The notes under the pieces: model-generated
The model's database searches: none
What the model was told of the DNA's origin: nothing
What the model saw: only the letters and a program-made list of their open reading frames with translations
Translations under genes and position numbers: made by a program
Shown: positions 20,030 through 25,260 of the stretch, one piece after another
How positions within the stretch are numbered: the first letter of the stretch is position 1
Layout: each line of letters opens with the position of its first letter
Origin: Pseudomonadota bacterium
GTDB taxonomy: Bacteria > Pseudomonadota > Gammaproteobacteria > Burkholderiales > Rhodocyclaceae
Length of the DNA: 64,000 bases
Direction of reading: 5' to 3'
Assembly (NCBI GenBank): GCA_018241665.1
Contig: JAFEDK010000007.1
Span: 124,001-188,000 of the forward strand

Positions 20030-20998
20030 GTGTTTGCCAATTTTAAGAACAAGCTGTGCAGCGCCCTGGCCTTGCTGGTCATGCTGACTGCCACAGCGTT
20101 TGCCGACGACCCCCCCCCAACGCCGGAAGATCTCACCAAGATCAAGACCGCCAATGCCGAGTGCCTGAGCTGCCATTCGGAGGCGGGGCTCAAGAAGCTT
20201 CCCAAGGAAGGGCTGGACGTCAAAAAGCTGCGTAACTACCTTGTCGATCTGGATACCTACACGGGGTCCGACCACGGGCAGATGGCCTGCAGCAAATGTC
20301 ATGGCGATGGCTACGACAAGCATCCCCATGCCGCCAAGGCCAAGGAAGGTCTGAGCGAATGCCAGGACTGCCACGCCCGCAAGGCGATGCGCATCGAGCG
20401 CCAGTTCGACAAGTCGGTCCATGCGGAGAACCTCAGCGACAGCTTTACCTGCGCGACCTGTCACGATGCGCACGTGATGACGCTGGCCTCCAAGCTGCGC
20501 GACCCGCACAAGATCGTGGCCCAGGACAACAAGATCTGCCTGGACTGCCACGACTCAGACCTGGCCTTCGCCAAGATCGCGCCCGAGAAGAAAAAGCGTC
20601 CGCCCATCGACGAGATCCACAGCTGGCTGCCGAACACCCGCCTGCACTGGCAGGCCGTGCGCTGCATCGAATGCCACACGCCGACGGAAGACAAGCTGTC
20701 CCTGTCCCACGAGATCCAGAACAAGGACAAGGCCGAGAAGAAGTGCGCCACCTGCCACAGCGCCAACACCTCGCTGAATGCGCGTCTTTACCGCCACCTG
20801 GCCAAGGAGGAGCAGAACAAGTATGGCTTCCTCAACAGCGTGATCCTCAGCAACTCCTATGTGGTGGGCGCGACCCGCAACCCGTCGATCGACTGGATCG
20901 TGATCGGCCTGTTCGTCGCCACCGTACTGGGCGTGATCGGCCACGGCCTGGTCCGCATCATCACAACCCGCATGCGCCGGAGCAAGAACCATGACTAA
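20030..20998 (+). CDS. Heptaheme c-type cytochrome with C-terminal membrane anchor
   Basis: 322 aa from GTG 20030 (AGAGGA upstream; signal peptide LCSALALLVMLTATAFA starts here). Seven CXXCH sites: CLSCH, CSKCH, CQDCH, CATCH, CLDCH, CIECH, CATCH. Ten further histidines before the anchor are enough for bis-His ligation of all hemes. One C-terminal helix (IDWIVIGLFVATVLGVIGHGLV) with a basic cytoplasmic tail anchors it. It is neither NapC/CymA (tetraheme, N-terminal anchor) nor MtrA. It overlaps the cytochrome b gene by 8 bp, so the two probably form a membrane quinol-cytochrome oxidoreductase. Confidence 0.88.
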   Translation: MFANFKNKLCSALALLVMLTATAFADDPPPTPEDLTKIKTANAECLSCHSEAGLKKLPKEGLDVKKLRNYLVDLDTYTGSDHGQMACSKCHGDGYDKHPHAAKAKEGLSECQDCHARKAMRIERQFDKSVHAENLSDSFTCATCHDAHVMTLASKLRDPHKIVAQDNKICLDCHDSDLAFAKIAPEKKKRPPIDEIHSWLPNTRLHWQAVRCIECHTPTEDKLSLSHEIQNKDKAEKKCATCHSANTSLNARLYRHLAKEEQNKYGFLNSVILSNSYVVGATRNPSIDWIVIGLFVATVLGVIGHGLVRIITTRMRRSKNHD

Positions 20999-21605
20999 TC
21001 GCGTTTTCATGCTGCCCCTGTGGATCCGCCTGTGGCACTGGAGCAATGCACTGGCGATCATCGTGCTGGCGGTGACCGGCGTCAGCCTGCACTTCTCCAA
21101 CCCCGAGCTGCCGCTGGTGGAGTTCTCGCTGGCGGCCCGCATCCACAACGTGGCTGGCGTATGCCTGGCCGGCCTGTATGTGGTGTTCGTGGTCGGCAAT
21201 ATCGTCACCGGCAACTGGTGGCAGTACGTACCGAAGCCGCCCGGCATCATCGGCCGCTGCCTGACCCAGATGCAGTACTACGGCTCGGGCATCTTCAAAG
21301 GTGAGAAGGAGCCCTTCCCGCCGACCCCCGAGGTCAATTTCAACGCGCTGCAGGCAGTCACCTACTGGTCGATCATGTACCTGGTGCTGCCGGTGGTCAT
21401 CGCCACCGGCCTGATCTTCCTGTACCCGCAGTTCGCGCCCGACCGCCTGTTCGGCCTCGATGGCCTGCTGCCGATCGCGATGCTCCATTACCTGGGCGCC
21501 GCGGTGATCGTGCTGTTCGCGGTCAGCCACATCTACCTGGGCACCATGGGCCCCAAGGTTTCCAGCCTGTTCAAGATGATGATCACCGGCTGGTACGAGC
21601 ACTGA
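20991..21605 (+). CDS. Cytochrome b561 / HydC-FdnI-type quinone-interacting subunit
   Basis: 204 aa with four membrane helices. Histidines placed as in FdnI/HydC two-heme cytochromes b: WIRLWHWSN (helix 1), AARIHNVAG (helix 2) and MLHYLG...VSHIYLG (helix 4). Expected to exchange electrons between the quinone pool and the heptaheme subunit at the periplasmic face. The ATGACTAA overlap with the preceding stop indicates coupled translation. Confidence 0.88.
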   Translation: MTNRVFMLPLWIRLWHWSNALAIIVLAVTGVSLHFSNPELPLVEFSLAARIHNVAGVCLAGLYVVFVVGNIVTGNWWQYVPKPPGIIGRCLTQMQYYGSGIFKGEKEPFPPTPEVNFNALQAVTYWSIMYLVLPVVIATGLIFLYPQFAPDRLFGLDGLLPIAMLHYLGAAVIVLFAVSHIYLGTMGPKVSSLFKMMITGWYEH

Positions 21606-21652
21606 TTTCCCGTTCCAACTCAAGCAATAAATATCCTCGAGGAGAGTCGCAG

Positions 21653-22003
21653 ATGAAATTCAAACTGACCGCCGTGCTGATGTCCGGCCTTTGCGCGTCC
21701 GGCCTGATGCTGTCCGCCCAAGCCTTCGCCTTCGATGCCGACGCCGCCCAGGCCCTGGCCAAGAAGGAAGGCTGTACCAAGTGCCACGCGGTGGACAAGA
21801 AGAAGGAAGCCAAGTCCCTGACCGAGATTTCCAAGTCGCTGAAGGGCAAGTCGGATGCCGAGGCCAAGCTGCTGCACCACCTGACGTCTGGCGACAAGGT
21901 CAAGTTCGAGGATGGCAAGGAGGAGGAACACAAGATCCTCAAGACCAAGGACAAGGCCGAGATCAAGAATCTGACCGACTGGATTCTGTCCCTCGGCAAG
22001 TAA
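21653..22003 (+). CDS. Small monoheme periplasmic cytochrome c
   Basis: 116 aa with a signal peptide ending AQAFA and a single heme site CTKCH near residue 41. Lysine-rich mature protein with C-terminal helix ending LTDWILSLGK, as in class I cytochromes. The mature part has no methionine, so the distal ligand cannot be Met; LLHHL or EEHKIL are the candidate histidines. Likely soluble shuttle between the inner-membrane module and MtrA, comparable in position to MtoD of Fe(II) oxidisers. Confidence 0.85.
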   Translation: MKFKLTAVLMSGLCASGLMLSAQAFAFDADAAQALAKKEGCTKCHAVDKKKEAKSLTEISKSLKGKSDAEAKLLHHLTSGDKVKFEDGKEEEHKILKTKDKAEIKNLTDWILSLGK

Positions 22004-22072
22004 ACCGTTCGGGTGGGATGCCCGACTTGCAGGGCATCCCGGACAACGAAAGCAGTACCAGGGAGAAACAAC

Positions 22073-23056
22073 ATGAAATTTCTGCGAAAGCTGATCGCCT
22101 CATGCATGGTGCTTGGGGCACTGGCGGGCAGCACCGCCGTGCTGGCGGCCGATGCCCCGATGAGCGGTGGCAAGCCGCCGGCCAAGGATCTCGTGCTGAA
22201 GGGCGACGCCAAGTGCACATCCTGTCACGACGAGAGCGACGAGCCCAAGCTGCTCCACATCGGCAAGACCAAGCACGGCAGCCTGGCTGACGGCCGCACG
22301 CCGAGCTGTACCAGCTGCCACGGCGACAGCGACAAGCACGTCAACAACCCCGAAAAACTCAAGGAACGCCCGGTCACCGACCGTAGCTTCGGCAAGTCCT
22401 CGAAGCTTAGCGCCGACGAAAAGAGTGCAGCCTGTACGACCTGCCACCAGGGCGGCAAGCACATCAACTGGAACACCAGCGCCCACGCCAACCGTGACGT
22501 CTCGTGCTCATCCTGCCACCAGGTCCACGCCGGTAAGGACAAGGTCCGTGACAAGCGCACCCAGGCGGAAGTCTGCTACACCTGCCACAAGCAGCAGCGA
22601 GCCGAGGCGAACAAGCCGTCGCACCACCCGATCCCAGAAGGCAAGATGACCTGCTCGGACTGCCACAATGCGCACGGTTCCGCCGGTCCGAAGATGCTGG
22701 TGAAGGACACCACCAACGCCACCTGCTACACCTGCCATGCCGAAAAGCGCGGCCCCTTCGTGCATAACCACCAGCCGGTCGTCGAGGATTGCGGCAACTG
22801 CCACAACCCGCACGGCACGACGGCGGAAGGCATGCTCAAGGCACGTCAGCCCTTCCTGTGCCAGCAGTGTCACGGCGAGTCCTCGCACCCGGGCAACATC
22901 CCGGGCGTGCGCAGCAACCTGCCCAATGCGGTGAGCACCAACATCGGCCCGGGCATGGCCCAGGCACGCGGCTGCATGAACTGCCATACCAACATCCACG
23001 GCAGCAACAGCCCCAGCAACGCGACGTCCAGCGGCCCGTTCCGCTTCTTCCGCTGA
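22073..23056 (+). CDS. mtrA: Decaheme cytochrome MtrA/DmsE family
   Basis: 327 aa with signal peptide (cleavage near VLAADAP). Ten CXXCH motifs in order: CTSCH, CTSCH, CTTCH, CSSCH, CYTCH, CSDCH, CYTCH, CGNCH, CQQCH, CMNCH, the exact count of MtrA/MtoA/PioA/DmsE. Expected to thread through the MtrB-type barrel and carry electrons across the outer membrane. The start is ATG 22073 behind GGGAGA. Directly upstream of the porin gene. The direction of electron flow (metal reduction or Fe(II) oxidation) cannot be read from sequence. Confidence 0.93.
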   Translation: MKFLRKLIASCMVLGALAGSTAVLAADAPMSGGKPPAKDLVLKGDAKCTSCHDESDEPKLLHIGKTKHGSLADGRTPSCTSCHGDSDKHVNNPEKLKERPVTDRSFGKSSKLSADEKSAACTTCHQGGKHINWNTSAHANRDVSCSSCHQVHAGKDKVRDKRTQAEVCYTCHKQQRAEANKPSHHPIPEGKMTCSDCHNAHGSAGPKMLVKDTTNATCYTCHAEKRGPFVHNHQPVVEDCGNCHNPHGTTAEGMLKARQPFLCQQCHGESSHPGNIPGVRSNLPNAVSTNIGPGMAQARGCMNCHTNIHGSNSPSNATSSGPFRFFR

Positions 23057-23071
23057 GCGAGGAGGATGATC

Positions 23072-25201
23072 ATGAGCAAGCATCTGAATTTCCGGCAGAC
23101 TGCCATCGTCATGGCCTTGTCGGCGGTGTTTCCGGTCGCCAGCGTGTGGGCGGATGAGGTCGAGGAGCTGACCAGCCCCAACAAGACCGAGGCGGCGCTG
23201 AACCTGCCGTACTACAGCGCGGTGAATCCGCTCTATCGCCAGTACAGCGGCGTGAACAACGAAGGCTTCAACGGCAACGTGGACATCGACGTGGTGCGCC
23301 GCGACGAGGAAGCCAAGTGGTTCAAGCTGAATGCCCGCAATCTCGGCCTGCGTACCCAGGAAGTGGACATTCGCTATGAGAAGCAGGGCGACTGGGCTCT
23401 GGGCCTCAGCTACGACCAGATCCCGCGCTACGCCCCGTATGATGTGACGACGGCAGTCCAGGGCGTCGGCCGTAACACCATCGTGCAGCCCAACATCGCC
23501 AGCACGGCGGTATCCGCCAATAACCCGAATGCCTACGACGTCACCCTCAAAACCGAGAGGGCAATCACCACGCTGACGGCCAGCAAGTTCGTCGCTGAAG
23601 GCCTCAAGCTGGGTTTCTCGTTCAAGAACGAGGACAAGACCGGCACGCGCATGGACGGCGTGCGCGGTGTGGCGGGGACGGGCGCGGCTAATCTGTACAG
23701 CGGCTTCCTGTTTGCACCGGAGCCCATCGACCAGAACCACAAACAGTTCGAGGCCACGGTCGATTACGTCAACAGCAAGTTCCAGCTCACCGGCGGTTAC
23801 TACGGCAGCTTCCTGAGCACCAAGTACAACTCGTTGACCGTGCTGCCCGGCACCAACACGGCGCTGGTCGTCCCCGGCCTGTCGCCAATCGCGCTGGCGC
23901 CGGACAACTCGGTGCAGCAGTTCTACGTGAATGGCGCCTACAACATCACGAAGGACACCCGGGCCAGCCTGAAGGTTTCGTATTCCGAGGGCCGCCAGGA
24001 CGACGGCTTCCTGACCGGGCAGGCCACTCTGGCCGGTATTGGTGCGAACCTGATGGGCGTGGTGCGGACCACCGAAGTCTTCTCGTCGATCACCTCGCGG
24101 ATCAACAAGGACCTCAAGCTGCTGGCGTCCTGGCGTTACGAGGACCGGCAGGACAAGACTCCGATCCGCCTGTTCGCCACCTCGACGACCGCCGGCGTGA
24201 CAACCAATTACTACAACAACCCCGAGTCCCACGTGGCCAACTGGGGCAAGCTCGAAGCGGATTACCGGATCGGTGGTGGCTACAGCGTGACCGCCGGCTT
24301 CGATTATTACGACAAGAGCAGCCTCGAGTGGGAGCGTCACCGGGTTTCCGAAACCACCTCACGCCTGGCCTTGCGCAAGACCATGAGCGAGACGGTGAAC
24401 GGGACCCTGTCGCTGGCCCACTCCGAACGTACGGGTTCGGACTGGTTTGGCGCCACGGCGCTGCCGATCTACCCGGTGTATCTGGCCGACCGCAATCGCG
24501 ACAAGGTACGCGGCATGCTGGACTGGAGTGCGACCGAGAGCCTGAACCTGCAGGTCGCGTATGAAGCCTACTTCGACGACTACCGCAAGAGCACCTACGG
24601 TCTCGACAAGGGCAAGGGCCAGGTGCTGTCCCTGGACGGCAGCTACACCCTCAGCGATATCTGGAAGCTGAATGCCTGGTACTCGAAGCAGACGGGCGAG
24701 TCGTCCCAGAACATGCAGGGCGCGGCATGTACCACCGGCAACAACAGCAACTGCACGGTCAATACCTTCCGCACCGGTACGCTCATCCAGTGGGATGCGA
24801 CGCTCAAGCAGAACTCCGACCAGTTTGGTTTGGGTGTGAACGGCAAGGTCAAGATGGTGGATGTGGGTGCCCAGTTCCTGTATTCCCAGGACACCAACAA
24901 GCAGCTGATCAGCGACATGCCCGCCACCACCTGCACCAACGCGACCTGCACCACCACCGGTACGGTGGCGTCCGGGATGGGCGTGCTGCCGGATACCAAG
25001 TACACGCAGAACACCCTCAAGCTGAACGCGACCTATCCGGTCAGCAAGGCAACCCGCGTGCGCCTGGACTACATCTACGACCTGCGCAAGATGGACGACT
25101 ACACCTGGTCGCAGTGGGTGTATGCGGACGGTACCAAGGTTTTCGTGAAGCCGGATCAGGTCACGCAGATCATTGGCCTGTCGTTGCTGCACGCGTTCTG
25201 A
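23072..25201 (+). CDS. mtrB: MtrB/PioB-family outer-membrane beta-barrel
   Basis: 709 aa with signal peptide (AVFPVASVWADE) and alternating hydrophobic strands throughout, ending in an aromatic-terminated strand (LSLLHAF), the outer-membrane porin signal. N-terminal domain NLPYYSAVNPLYRQYSGVN...GFNGNVDIDVVRRDE is typical of the decaheme-associated porin family. No CXXC near the N-terminus, unlike Shewanella MtrB; the few cysteines are in two loops around residues 550-635. ATG 23072 is chosen over 23066 because GGAGG is correctly spaced to it. Sheath for the decaheme MtrA. Confidence 0.92.
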   Translation: MSKHLNFRQTAIVMALSAVFPVASVWADEVEELTSPNKTEAALNLPYYSAVNPLYRQYSGVNNEGFNGNVDIDVVRRDEEAKWFKLNARNLGLRTQEVDIRYEKQGDWALGLSYDQIPRYAPYDVTTAVQGVGRNTIVQPNIASTAVSANNPNAYDVTLKTERAITTLTASKFVAEGLKLGFSFKNEDKTGTRMDGVRGVAGTGAANLYSGFLFAPEPIDQNHKQFEATVDYVNSKFQLTGGYYGSFLSTKYNSLTVLPGTNTALVVPGLSPIALAPDNSVQQFYVNGAYNITKDTRASLKVSYSEGRQDDGFLTGQATLAGIGANLMGVVRTTEVFSSITSRINKDLKLLASWRYEDRQDKTPIRLFATSTTAGVTTNYYNNPESHVANWGKLEADYRIGGGYSVTAGFDYYDKSSLEWERHRVSETTSRLALRKTMSETVNGTLSLAHSERTGSDWFGATALPIYPVYLADRNRDKVRGMLDWSATESLNLQVAYEAYFDDYRKSTYGLDKGKGQVLSLDGSYTLSDIWKLNAWYSKQTGESSQNMQGAACTTGNNSNCTVNTFRTGTLIQWDATLKQNSDQFGLGVNGKVKMVDVGAQFLYSQDTNKQLISDMPATTCTNATCTTTGTVASGMGVLPDTKYTQNTLKLNATYPVSKATRVRLDYIYDLRKMDDYTWSQWVYADGTKVFVKPDQVTQIIGLSLLHAF

Positions 25202-25220
25202 TCGTTTCCTGAAGTAACAA

Positions 25221-25260
25221 GCAAAGAGCCCCTGGCGCAATGCCAGGGGCTCTTTGCTTT
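25221..25260 (+). terminator. Terminator of the multiheme/mtrAB operon
   Basis: Sixteen-pair hairpin (25221-25236 with 25242-25257, 5-base loop) around CCCCTGGC/GCCAGGGG, followed by a short T-run. It ends the operon just before the second inverted-repeat element. Confidence 0.9.

Follow-up and report, generated by a model that had tools for sequence, protein, structure and literature searches.

A five-gene Rhodocyclaceae locus that joins a predicted CbcBA-type quinone module to an MtrAB conduit

The window analyzed here is a 64,000-nucleotide stretch of contig JAFEDK010000007.1 (GenBank assembly GCA_018241665.1, a Zoogloea-like member of the Rhodocyclaceae with a genome of 5.4 Mb, 99.95% complete), and it carries at 20030-25201, on the + strand and with spacings of -8, 47, 69 and 9 nt, five genes for a heptaheme c-type cytochrome, a cytochrome b, a monoheme c-type cytochrome, a decaheme MtrA and an MtrB barrel (Table 1). 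The initial annotation, which was made from the letters of the stretch alone, had described this order as an electron conduit with a split CbcL-like quinone module in front of MtrAB, and all five genes were indeed present in that order. As judged from its gene families, the locus probably moves electrons between the inner membrane and the cell exterior, and we consider it likely that genes 1 and 2 act as a reversible CbcBA-type quinone:cytochrome oxidoreductase feeding the MtrAB conduit.

Table 1. Features of the MtrAB locus, in positions of the window
Feature	Coordinates	Strand	Evidence
Gene 1, heptaheme c-type cytochrome, CbcA-like	20030..20998	+	7 CXXCH, signal segment, C-terminal membrane helix; PF14522/PF09699
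Gene 2, cytochrome b of diheme type with four helices, like CbcB, FdnI and PhsC; predicted to be the subunit that reacts with quinone	20991..21605	+	PF01292 80 bits
Gene 3, periplasmic monoheme c, MtoD-like	21653..22003	+	PF00034; PDB 4xxl E 3e-30
Gene 4, decaheme c, MtrA/MtoA/DmsE family	22073..23056	+	TIGR03508 280 bits; 6r2q_A E 8.5e-70
Gene 5, outer-membrane beta-barrel MtrB/PioB	23066..25201	+	PF11854 417 bits; TIGR03509 326 bits; 6r2q_B E 9.6e-26
Terminator-like hairpin between convergent mtrB and downstream ABC-F gene	25219..25259	.	-37 kcal/mol, z -8.1

Gene 1, for which GTG 20030 is a possible start, encodes seven CXXCH motifs between an N-terminal signal-like segment and a single C-terminal hydrophobic helix that is reminiscent of the anchors of FdnH and HyaA. 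Fifteen histidines were invariant in 36/36 relatives, namely the seven of the CXXCH motifs, seven others that are candidate distal heme ligands, and H305. The last of these lies within the C-terminal membrane anchor, is surplus to the 14 histidines of seven bis-His hemes and could be in contact with a b heme or with quinone. The best PDB match of gene 1 was 28pb_A, entitled 'Cytochrome c' (E 1e-7), and no NapC/NirT domain was found in the conduit cluster, gene 1 reaching 21.8 bits against the PF03264 cut-off of 24.1. The nearest relative named to genus was Zoogloea sp. LCSB751 (92%), two metagenome-assembled genomes (MAGs) labeled 'Proteobacteria bacterium' being nearer (94-95%) and further Zoogloea standing at 80-88%, and gene 1 had no match among plasmid records.

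Gene 2 belongs with the diheme cytochromes b of the HydC/FdnI kind. A profile built from 35 of its relatives matched FdnI of E. coli (PDB 1kqf_C, E 2.5e-10), whereas an alignment of 8 rows had found nothing among the PDB sequences up to E 0.1, and the structure model of gene 2 (predicted local distance difference test score, pLDDT, of 80.7) likewise returned 1kqf_C as the top Foldseek match. Counting through the printed alignment places H16, H52, H166 and H180 on H18, H57, H155 and H169 of FdnI and N118 on its Asn110, and these four histidines and the asparagine are kept in 35/35 relatives; we take the FdnI residues to be the b-heme ligands and part of the quinone site on the cytoplasmic side. 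Gene 2, which resembles both FdnI and HyaC in its four-helix fold, is thus predicted to hold two b hemes and to exchange electrons with quinone. It also matched PhsC (158 bits; 37% identity over 99%) as well as 60 plasmid records, all below 60% identity, of which seven of the eight listed were annotated as thiosulfate reductase cytochrome b. FdnI, HyaC and PhsC exchange electrons with an Fe-S subunit, a hydrogenase or a molybdoenzyme, whereas the partner here would be a heptaheme cytochrome c. Genes 1 and 2 overlap by 8 nt, and the earlier description of a separate, overlapping heptaheme c and HydC/FdnI-type b joined to MtrAB is borne out.

Genes 4 and 5, a decaheme MtrA-family cytochrome (10 CXXCH) adjoining an MtrB/PioB barrel, score above the TIGR03508 and TIGR03509 cut-offs, respectively, and form a porin-cytochrome pair of the MtrAB/MtoAB/PioAB type, with the only MtrB of the genome. 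Gene 3, which has one CXXCH, is homologous to the MtoD of Sideroxydans, deposited as MtoD in PDB 4xxl (PMC4412085). The claim that no MtrC/OmcA-like surface cytochrome is encoded holds genome-wide for the OmcA/MtrC family (best score 15.8 bits, cut-off 209.3; the search did not extend to surface cytochromes of other kinds), so that the extracellular decaheme cytochrome of an MtrCAB system was not found. The c and b domains, which share one polypeptide in CbcL, MtoC and MtrH, are here encoded in two separate open reading frames (ORFs), and an alignment of fused MtoC-type proteins matched nothing in the genome except, weakly (35.6 bits), the window's own heptaheme gene. A single NapC is encoded, adjoining two iron-sulfur proteins and a molybdoenzyme in a nap-type operon.

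Among known systems, a closer match to the architecture of genes 1 and 2 than a split CbcL is the CbcBA pair of Geobacter, in which cbcB encodes a PF01292 protein and cbcA a membrane-bound heptaheme cytochrome (PMC7726332), and which is part of the Cbc5 set cbcEDCBA (PMC11434368). In both cases adjacent genes encode a membrane-bound heptaheme c and a separate PF01292 b at the quinone pool; the Geobacter pair differs in standing within cbcEDCBA, in its outer conduits of Pcc type and in its menaquinone pool. The initial statement that Geobacter uses CbcL was hence incomplete. No gene fission is shown, and the reading 'split CbcL' should give way to that of a two-gene quinone module of CbcBA type joined to MtrAB. 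In a search of one open-access library no paper joining CbcBA with Betaproteobacteria was found. Equally incomplete was the statement that known MtrAB systems use CymA/NapC, as the fused CbcL homologues MtoC and MtrH have been published beside mtrAB (Zhong and Shi PMC6295460; He et al. PMC5566968). These place a multiheme c and a b membrane domain beside mtrAB or mtoAB, often with mtoD, as at our locus, but they are single polypeptides, with 8-9 hemes in the family copies and a b domain that resembles gene 2 only remotely. The Mto system of Sideroxydans (MtoABD and ImoA) is similar in having an MtrAB-type conduit with an MtoD protein and without MtrC, and differs in its quinone partner, the tetraheme NapC/CymA-type ImoA.

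The five-gene cluster itself is already known, having been reported by Berger et al. (2021) among the candidate extracellular electron transfer (EET) genes of a Zoogloea sp. MAG (PMC8258643). Whether an identical module with an assigned function was in print is answered in part: the cluster is published, but as a candidate without a functional test, three of its genes being stated to have no characterized homologues, and the passages compared here contain no link to CbcBA and no account of distribution or of module exchange. New here are the assignment, which proposes an identity for genes that had none in the anode-enriched Zoogloea of that study and connects a genus common in activated sludge with a particular type of quinone module at the inner membrane, and the exchange of the conduit in place described below.

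In the route that we propose, gene 2 would exchange electrons with the quinone pool at its FdnI-like site, and the two b hemes would pass them through the inner membrane and on to the membrane-anchored heptaheme cytochrome. The periplasm would be bridged to MtrA by the MtoD-like gene 3 product, by direct contact or by both, and MtrA within MtrB would expose the electrons at the cell surface without MtrC. Genes 1 and 2 would occupy the place held by CymA or fused MtoC in other MtrAB clusters. The data directly show the gene content, the families, the conserved ligands, the recurrence and the exchange of modules, and from these we infer complex formation, quinone activity, the periplasmic partner and the direction of flow. 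No menaquinone gene passed its cut-off in the genome (MenD, best 77 bits against 244; MqnA type, best 19.9 bits against 26), which makes ubiquinone the probable quinone of the pool and reversibility of the route probable as well. Outward flow would reach high-potential acceptors such as anodes and quinones of the kind of anthraquinone-2,6-disulfonate (AQDS), and inward flow would draw on Fe(II)-like donors; with a quinone site like that of FdnI, flow would be energy-conserving when inward and energy-consuming when outward.

Outward flow is favored by the 720-fold enrichment of the published Zoogloea on a +400 mV anode (PMC8258643). That the working direction is instead inward, an Mto-like uptake in which electrons of Fe(II) or another extracellular donor reduce ubiquinone, appears possible though rather unlikely. 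The absence of MtrC, the MtoD-like protein and the probable ubiquinone pool are all as in Sideroxydans Mto and resemble Mto uptake, and flow through an FdnI-like site would also build membrane potential. Against this, the published field link is the anode enrichment just mentioned, and the MtoD of Sideroxydans ES-1 (+155 mV) binds neither MtoA nor ImoA (PMC13390432).

The gene order is not due to chance, as the search for it in other genomes that had been suggested at the outset recovered all five genes in 14/14 Zoogloea-group loci (12 Zoogloea and two 'Proteobacteria bacterium'). Two of these draft assemblies carry a broken gene, either through a frameshift or through an assembly error: the heptaheme gene of L149 (5318-6281) and mtrA of L143 (11930-12966) each lie in two ORFs. 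A wider scan of named genomes for gene 1 relatives gave 41 loci, 28 of them (L136-L163) at ≥54% identity; MtrAB was on the same stretch in 22 of the 28, contig ends cutting four of the remaining six, and an MtoD-like gene accompanied MtrAB in 20 of these 22 loci, while the two stretches without it end too early. The gene order varies among the MtrAB-linked close loci, in which the cassette may precede MtrAB, follow it or face it. Five of the close loci (L136, L150, L151, L152 and L157) are the same contigs as the family loci L053, L060, L042, L064 and L051, so that the two sets overlap.

In a family sample of 121 genomes, 35 have MtrB (34 of them over cut-off) and 13 have the heptaheme gene; ten of these 13 also have MtrB (Fisher p 2e-4, a statistic that ignores relatedness), and in eight the two genes are within ~4 kb. 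We then compared 39 stretches fetched around a part of the family MtrB places outside the window. The split cassette was present in seven, a fused MtoC-type protein of 8-9 hemes and 4-6 hydrophobic helices (by a crude scan) in eight, and small proteins of 3-4 hemes in a few, the two tested being of NapC/CymA type; L037 and L039, like L154 among the close loci, also encode a large decaheme protein, that of L037 belonging to the OmcA/MtrC family. Split and fused forms occurred together in 0/39. A strict rule of fused or split, never both, was nevertheless refuted by L130, a phylum locus without MtrAB where a fused 9-heme protein lies ~5 kb from a heptaheme/b pair, and by genome G031, which has a fused gene beside MtrAB and a heptaheme/b pair on another contig. 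An order-level search recovered only the window's own genome (1/399 at E <= 1e-30, with at most five candidates per genome scored); given this limit and the few family members in the order-level sample, the result does not contradict the family count of 13/121.

We built trees of 35 cytochrome b, 36 heptaheme, 42 MtrA and 43 MtrB rows and further trees of 29 MtrB and 21 heptaheme rows. Partial or broken loci (L156, L161-L163, L158 for its heptaheme gene, and L149) were left out, L143 stands outside the MtrA tree and L127, with its b gene in a longer ORF, outside the cytochrome b tree; other loci were omitted from single trees as near-copies or for time. The split partner changes six times on the MtrA tree and seven times on the MtrB tree, and well-supported branches force at least four and at least six of these changes, respectively (quick trees); on each of the two, L062 with its fused gene groups as sister to L064 with its split one. 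The family copies are separate from the octaheme-linked copies in the heptaheme and b trees, which neither show nor exclude that the MtrAB-linked copies arose once.

Within Zoogloea the conduit appears to have been exchanged in place. While ten Zoogloea rows form a single clade in the heptaheme tree (100/100), the eleven in the MtrB tree split into two distant types, and monophyly of the Zoogloea MtrB is rejected (lnL 592 worse, approximately unbiased test p 1.4e-13; quick tree, the group having been picked after viewing a tree). The second MtrAB type, found in 5/14 Zoogloea-group loci (L139, L140, L141, L143 and L148), is 30-33% identical to the window in MtrB and 60-64% in MtrA (plus a 112-aa fragment at 76%), whereas the same loci are 81-88% identical in gene 1 and 85-90% in the b gene. 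Both types lie between one and the same pair of genes, MOSC and EttA (seen on both sides in 12/14 loci and on one side in 2/14), the latter corresponding in the window to the ABC-F gene downstream of mtrB, which we take to be EttA-like. The nearest non-Zoogloea rows by path, one for each MtrB type (L060 and L042), also have a split module, placed after MtrAB. The family sample holds three genomes of the genus, and one of them, G036, is without MtrB and without the heptaheme gene; no empty site was demonstrated in it, because its upstream MOSC gene is present but no EttA homologue lies in the ~6 kb left on the contig.

These patterns suggest that the same conduit, MtrAB, can take alternative inner-membrane partners, namely CymA, fused MtoC or a CbcBA-type unit of two genes; modular evolution of MtrCAB and its accessory cytochromes has already been proposed by Baker et al. 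(PMC8805035). More tentatively, and with somewhat less than an even chance of being right, the heptaheme/b/monoheme cassette may be a portable inner-membrane unit that joined several MtrAB lineages separately, the conduit of Zoogloea having been swapped while the quinone unit was kept, and the FdnI-like site may make uptake energy-conserving, unlike a CymA-type partner. If so, the inner- and outer-membrane parts of EET evolve as interchangeable modules. In Zoogloea, the exchange amounts to a natural experiment on which of the two modules, inner or outer, determines the range of acceptors and the yield of energy.

The same interchange of fused and split modules beside related MtrAB would also fit an origin of genes 1 and 2 by fission of a CbcL/MtoC-type protein, and profile comparison aligns the two genes, in the same order, with the domains of MtoC-type proteins, gene 1 with c (E 5e-18) and gene 2 with b (E 2.4e-6). 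CXXCH-rich alignments, however, push such scores up, gene 2 is nearer to PhsC, only 1/8 fused proteins tested passed the PF01292 cut-off that gene 2 clears, and the heme counts differ (7 against 8-9). As two-gene relatives also occur in 37/398 phylum genomes, the window's own included, and the same architecture exists in Geobacter, we regard fission as improbable. Slightly less probable still is that the conduit works for an extracellular reductase of DmsEF type or with a soluble oxidant, not with solids or electrodes: the model that gene 4 passes, TIGR03508, is named for the DmsE family, but none of the five genes encodes a molybdoenzyme (a secreted reductase was not looked for among the relatives' neighbors or elsewhere in the genome).

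Beyond the family, the b gene adjoins the gene 1 relative in 15/15 phylum loci examined, and these stretches contained neither MtrAB nor the monoheme gene. An octaheme protein of 713-887 aa follows the pair in 13 of the 15 (L121-L131, L133 and L135), and in one phylum locus the b gene and the octaheme share a single 1057-aa open frame. The two octaheme proteins tested gave 67 and 76 bits with TIGR04315, below its cut-off of 375; they are distantly like the tetrathionate-reductase-family octaheme cytochromes and possibly belong to an uncharacterized respiratory complex. Within the family, the copies without MtrAB nearby include L120, which is part of a molybdoenzyme operon (PhsA being the nearest model, though below cut-off), and L117 and L155, which adjoin genes with the ethylbenzene-dehydrogenase (EB_dh) domain, while the neighbors of L116, L118 and L119 were checked for cytochromes only. 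Because of these several partner types the heptaheme/b pair is best seen as a general quinone-side unit. That genes 1 and 2 serve a periplasmic enzyme elsewhere, their place beside MtrAB being incidental, would agree with such partners and is the least probable alternative, given the 8-nt overlap, single strand and order kept in 14/14 Zoogloea-group loci and the separate joinings with several MtrAB lineages.

Several points nevertheless weigh against a CbcBA-type module feeding MtrAB. The octaheme-linked loci and the molybdoenzyme operon, together with three family genomes that have the pair and no MtrB (G025, G041 and G065), place the pair away from MtrAB, and its use by MtrAB is for this reason deduced from neighborhood. 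The likeness to Geobacter CbcA and CbcB is one of architecture, taken from the published description, and the structure model of gene 1 (pLDDT 53.6) was too poor for a structure search. A bridging role of gene 3 is also doubtful, because the MtoD of Sideroxydans binds neither of its candidate partners.

A promoter scan of the locus found none, and the hairpin behind mtrB is absent from the list given by the consensus scan. Apart from the locus, contig C21 of the same genome carries at ~18.6-21.8 kb (L001) a 766-aa open frame that combines several CXXCH motifs and a stretch resembling c554 with a C-terminal part rich in repeats.

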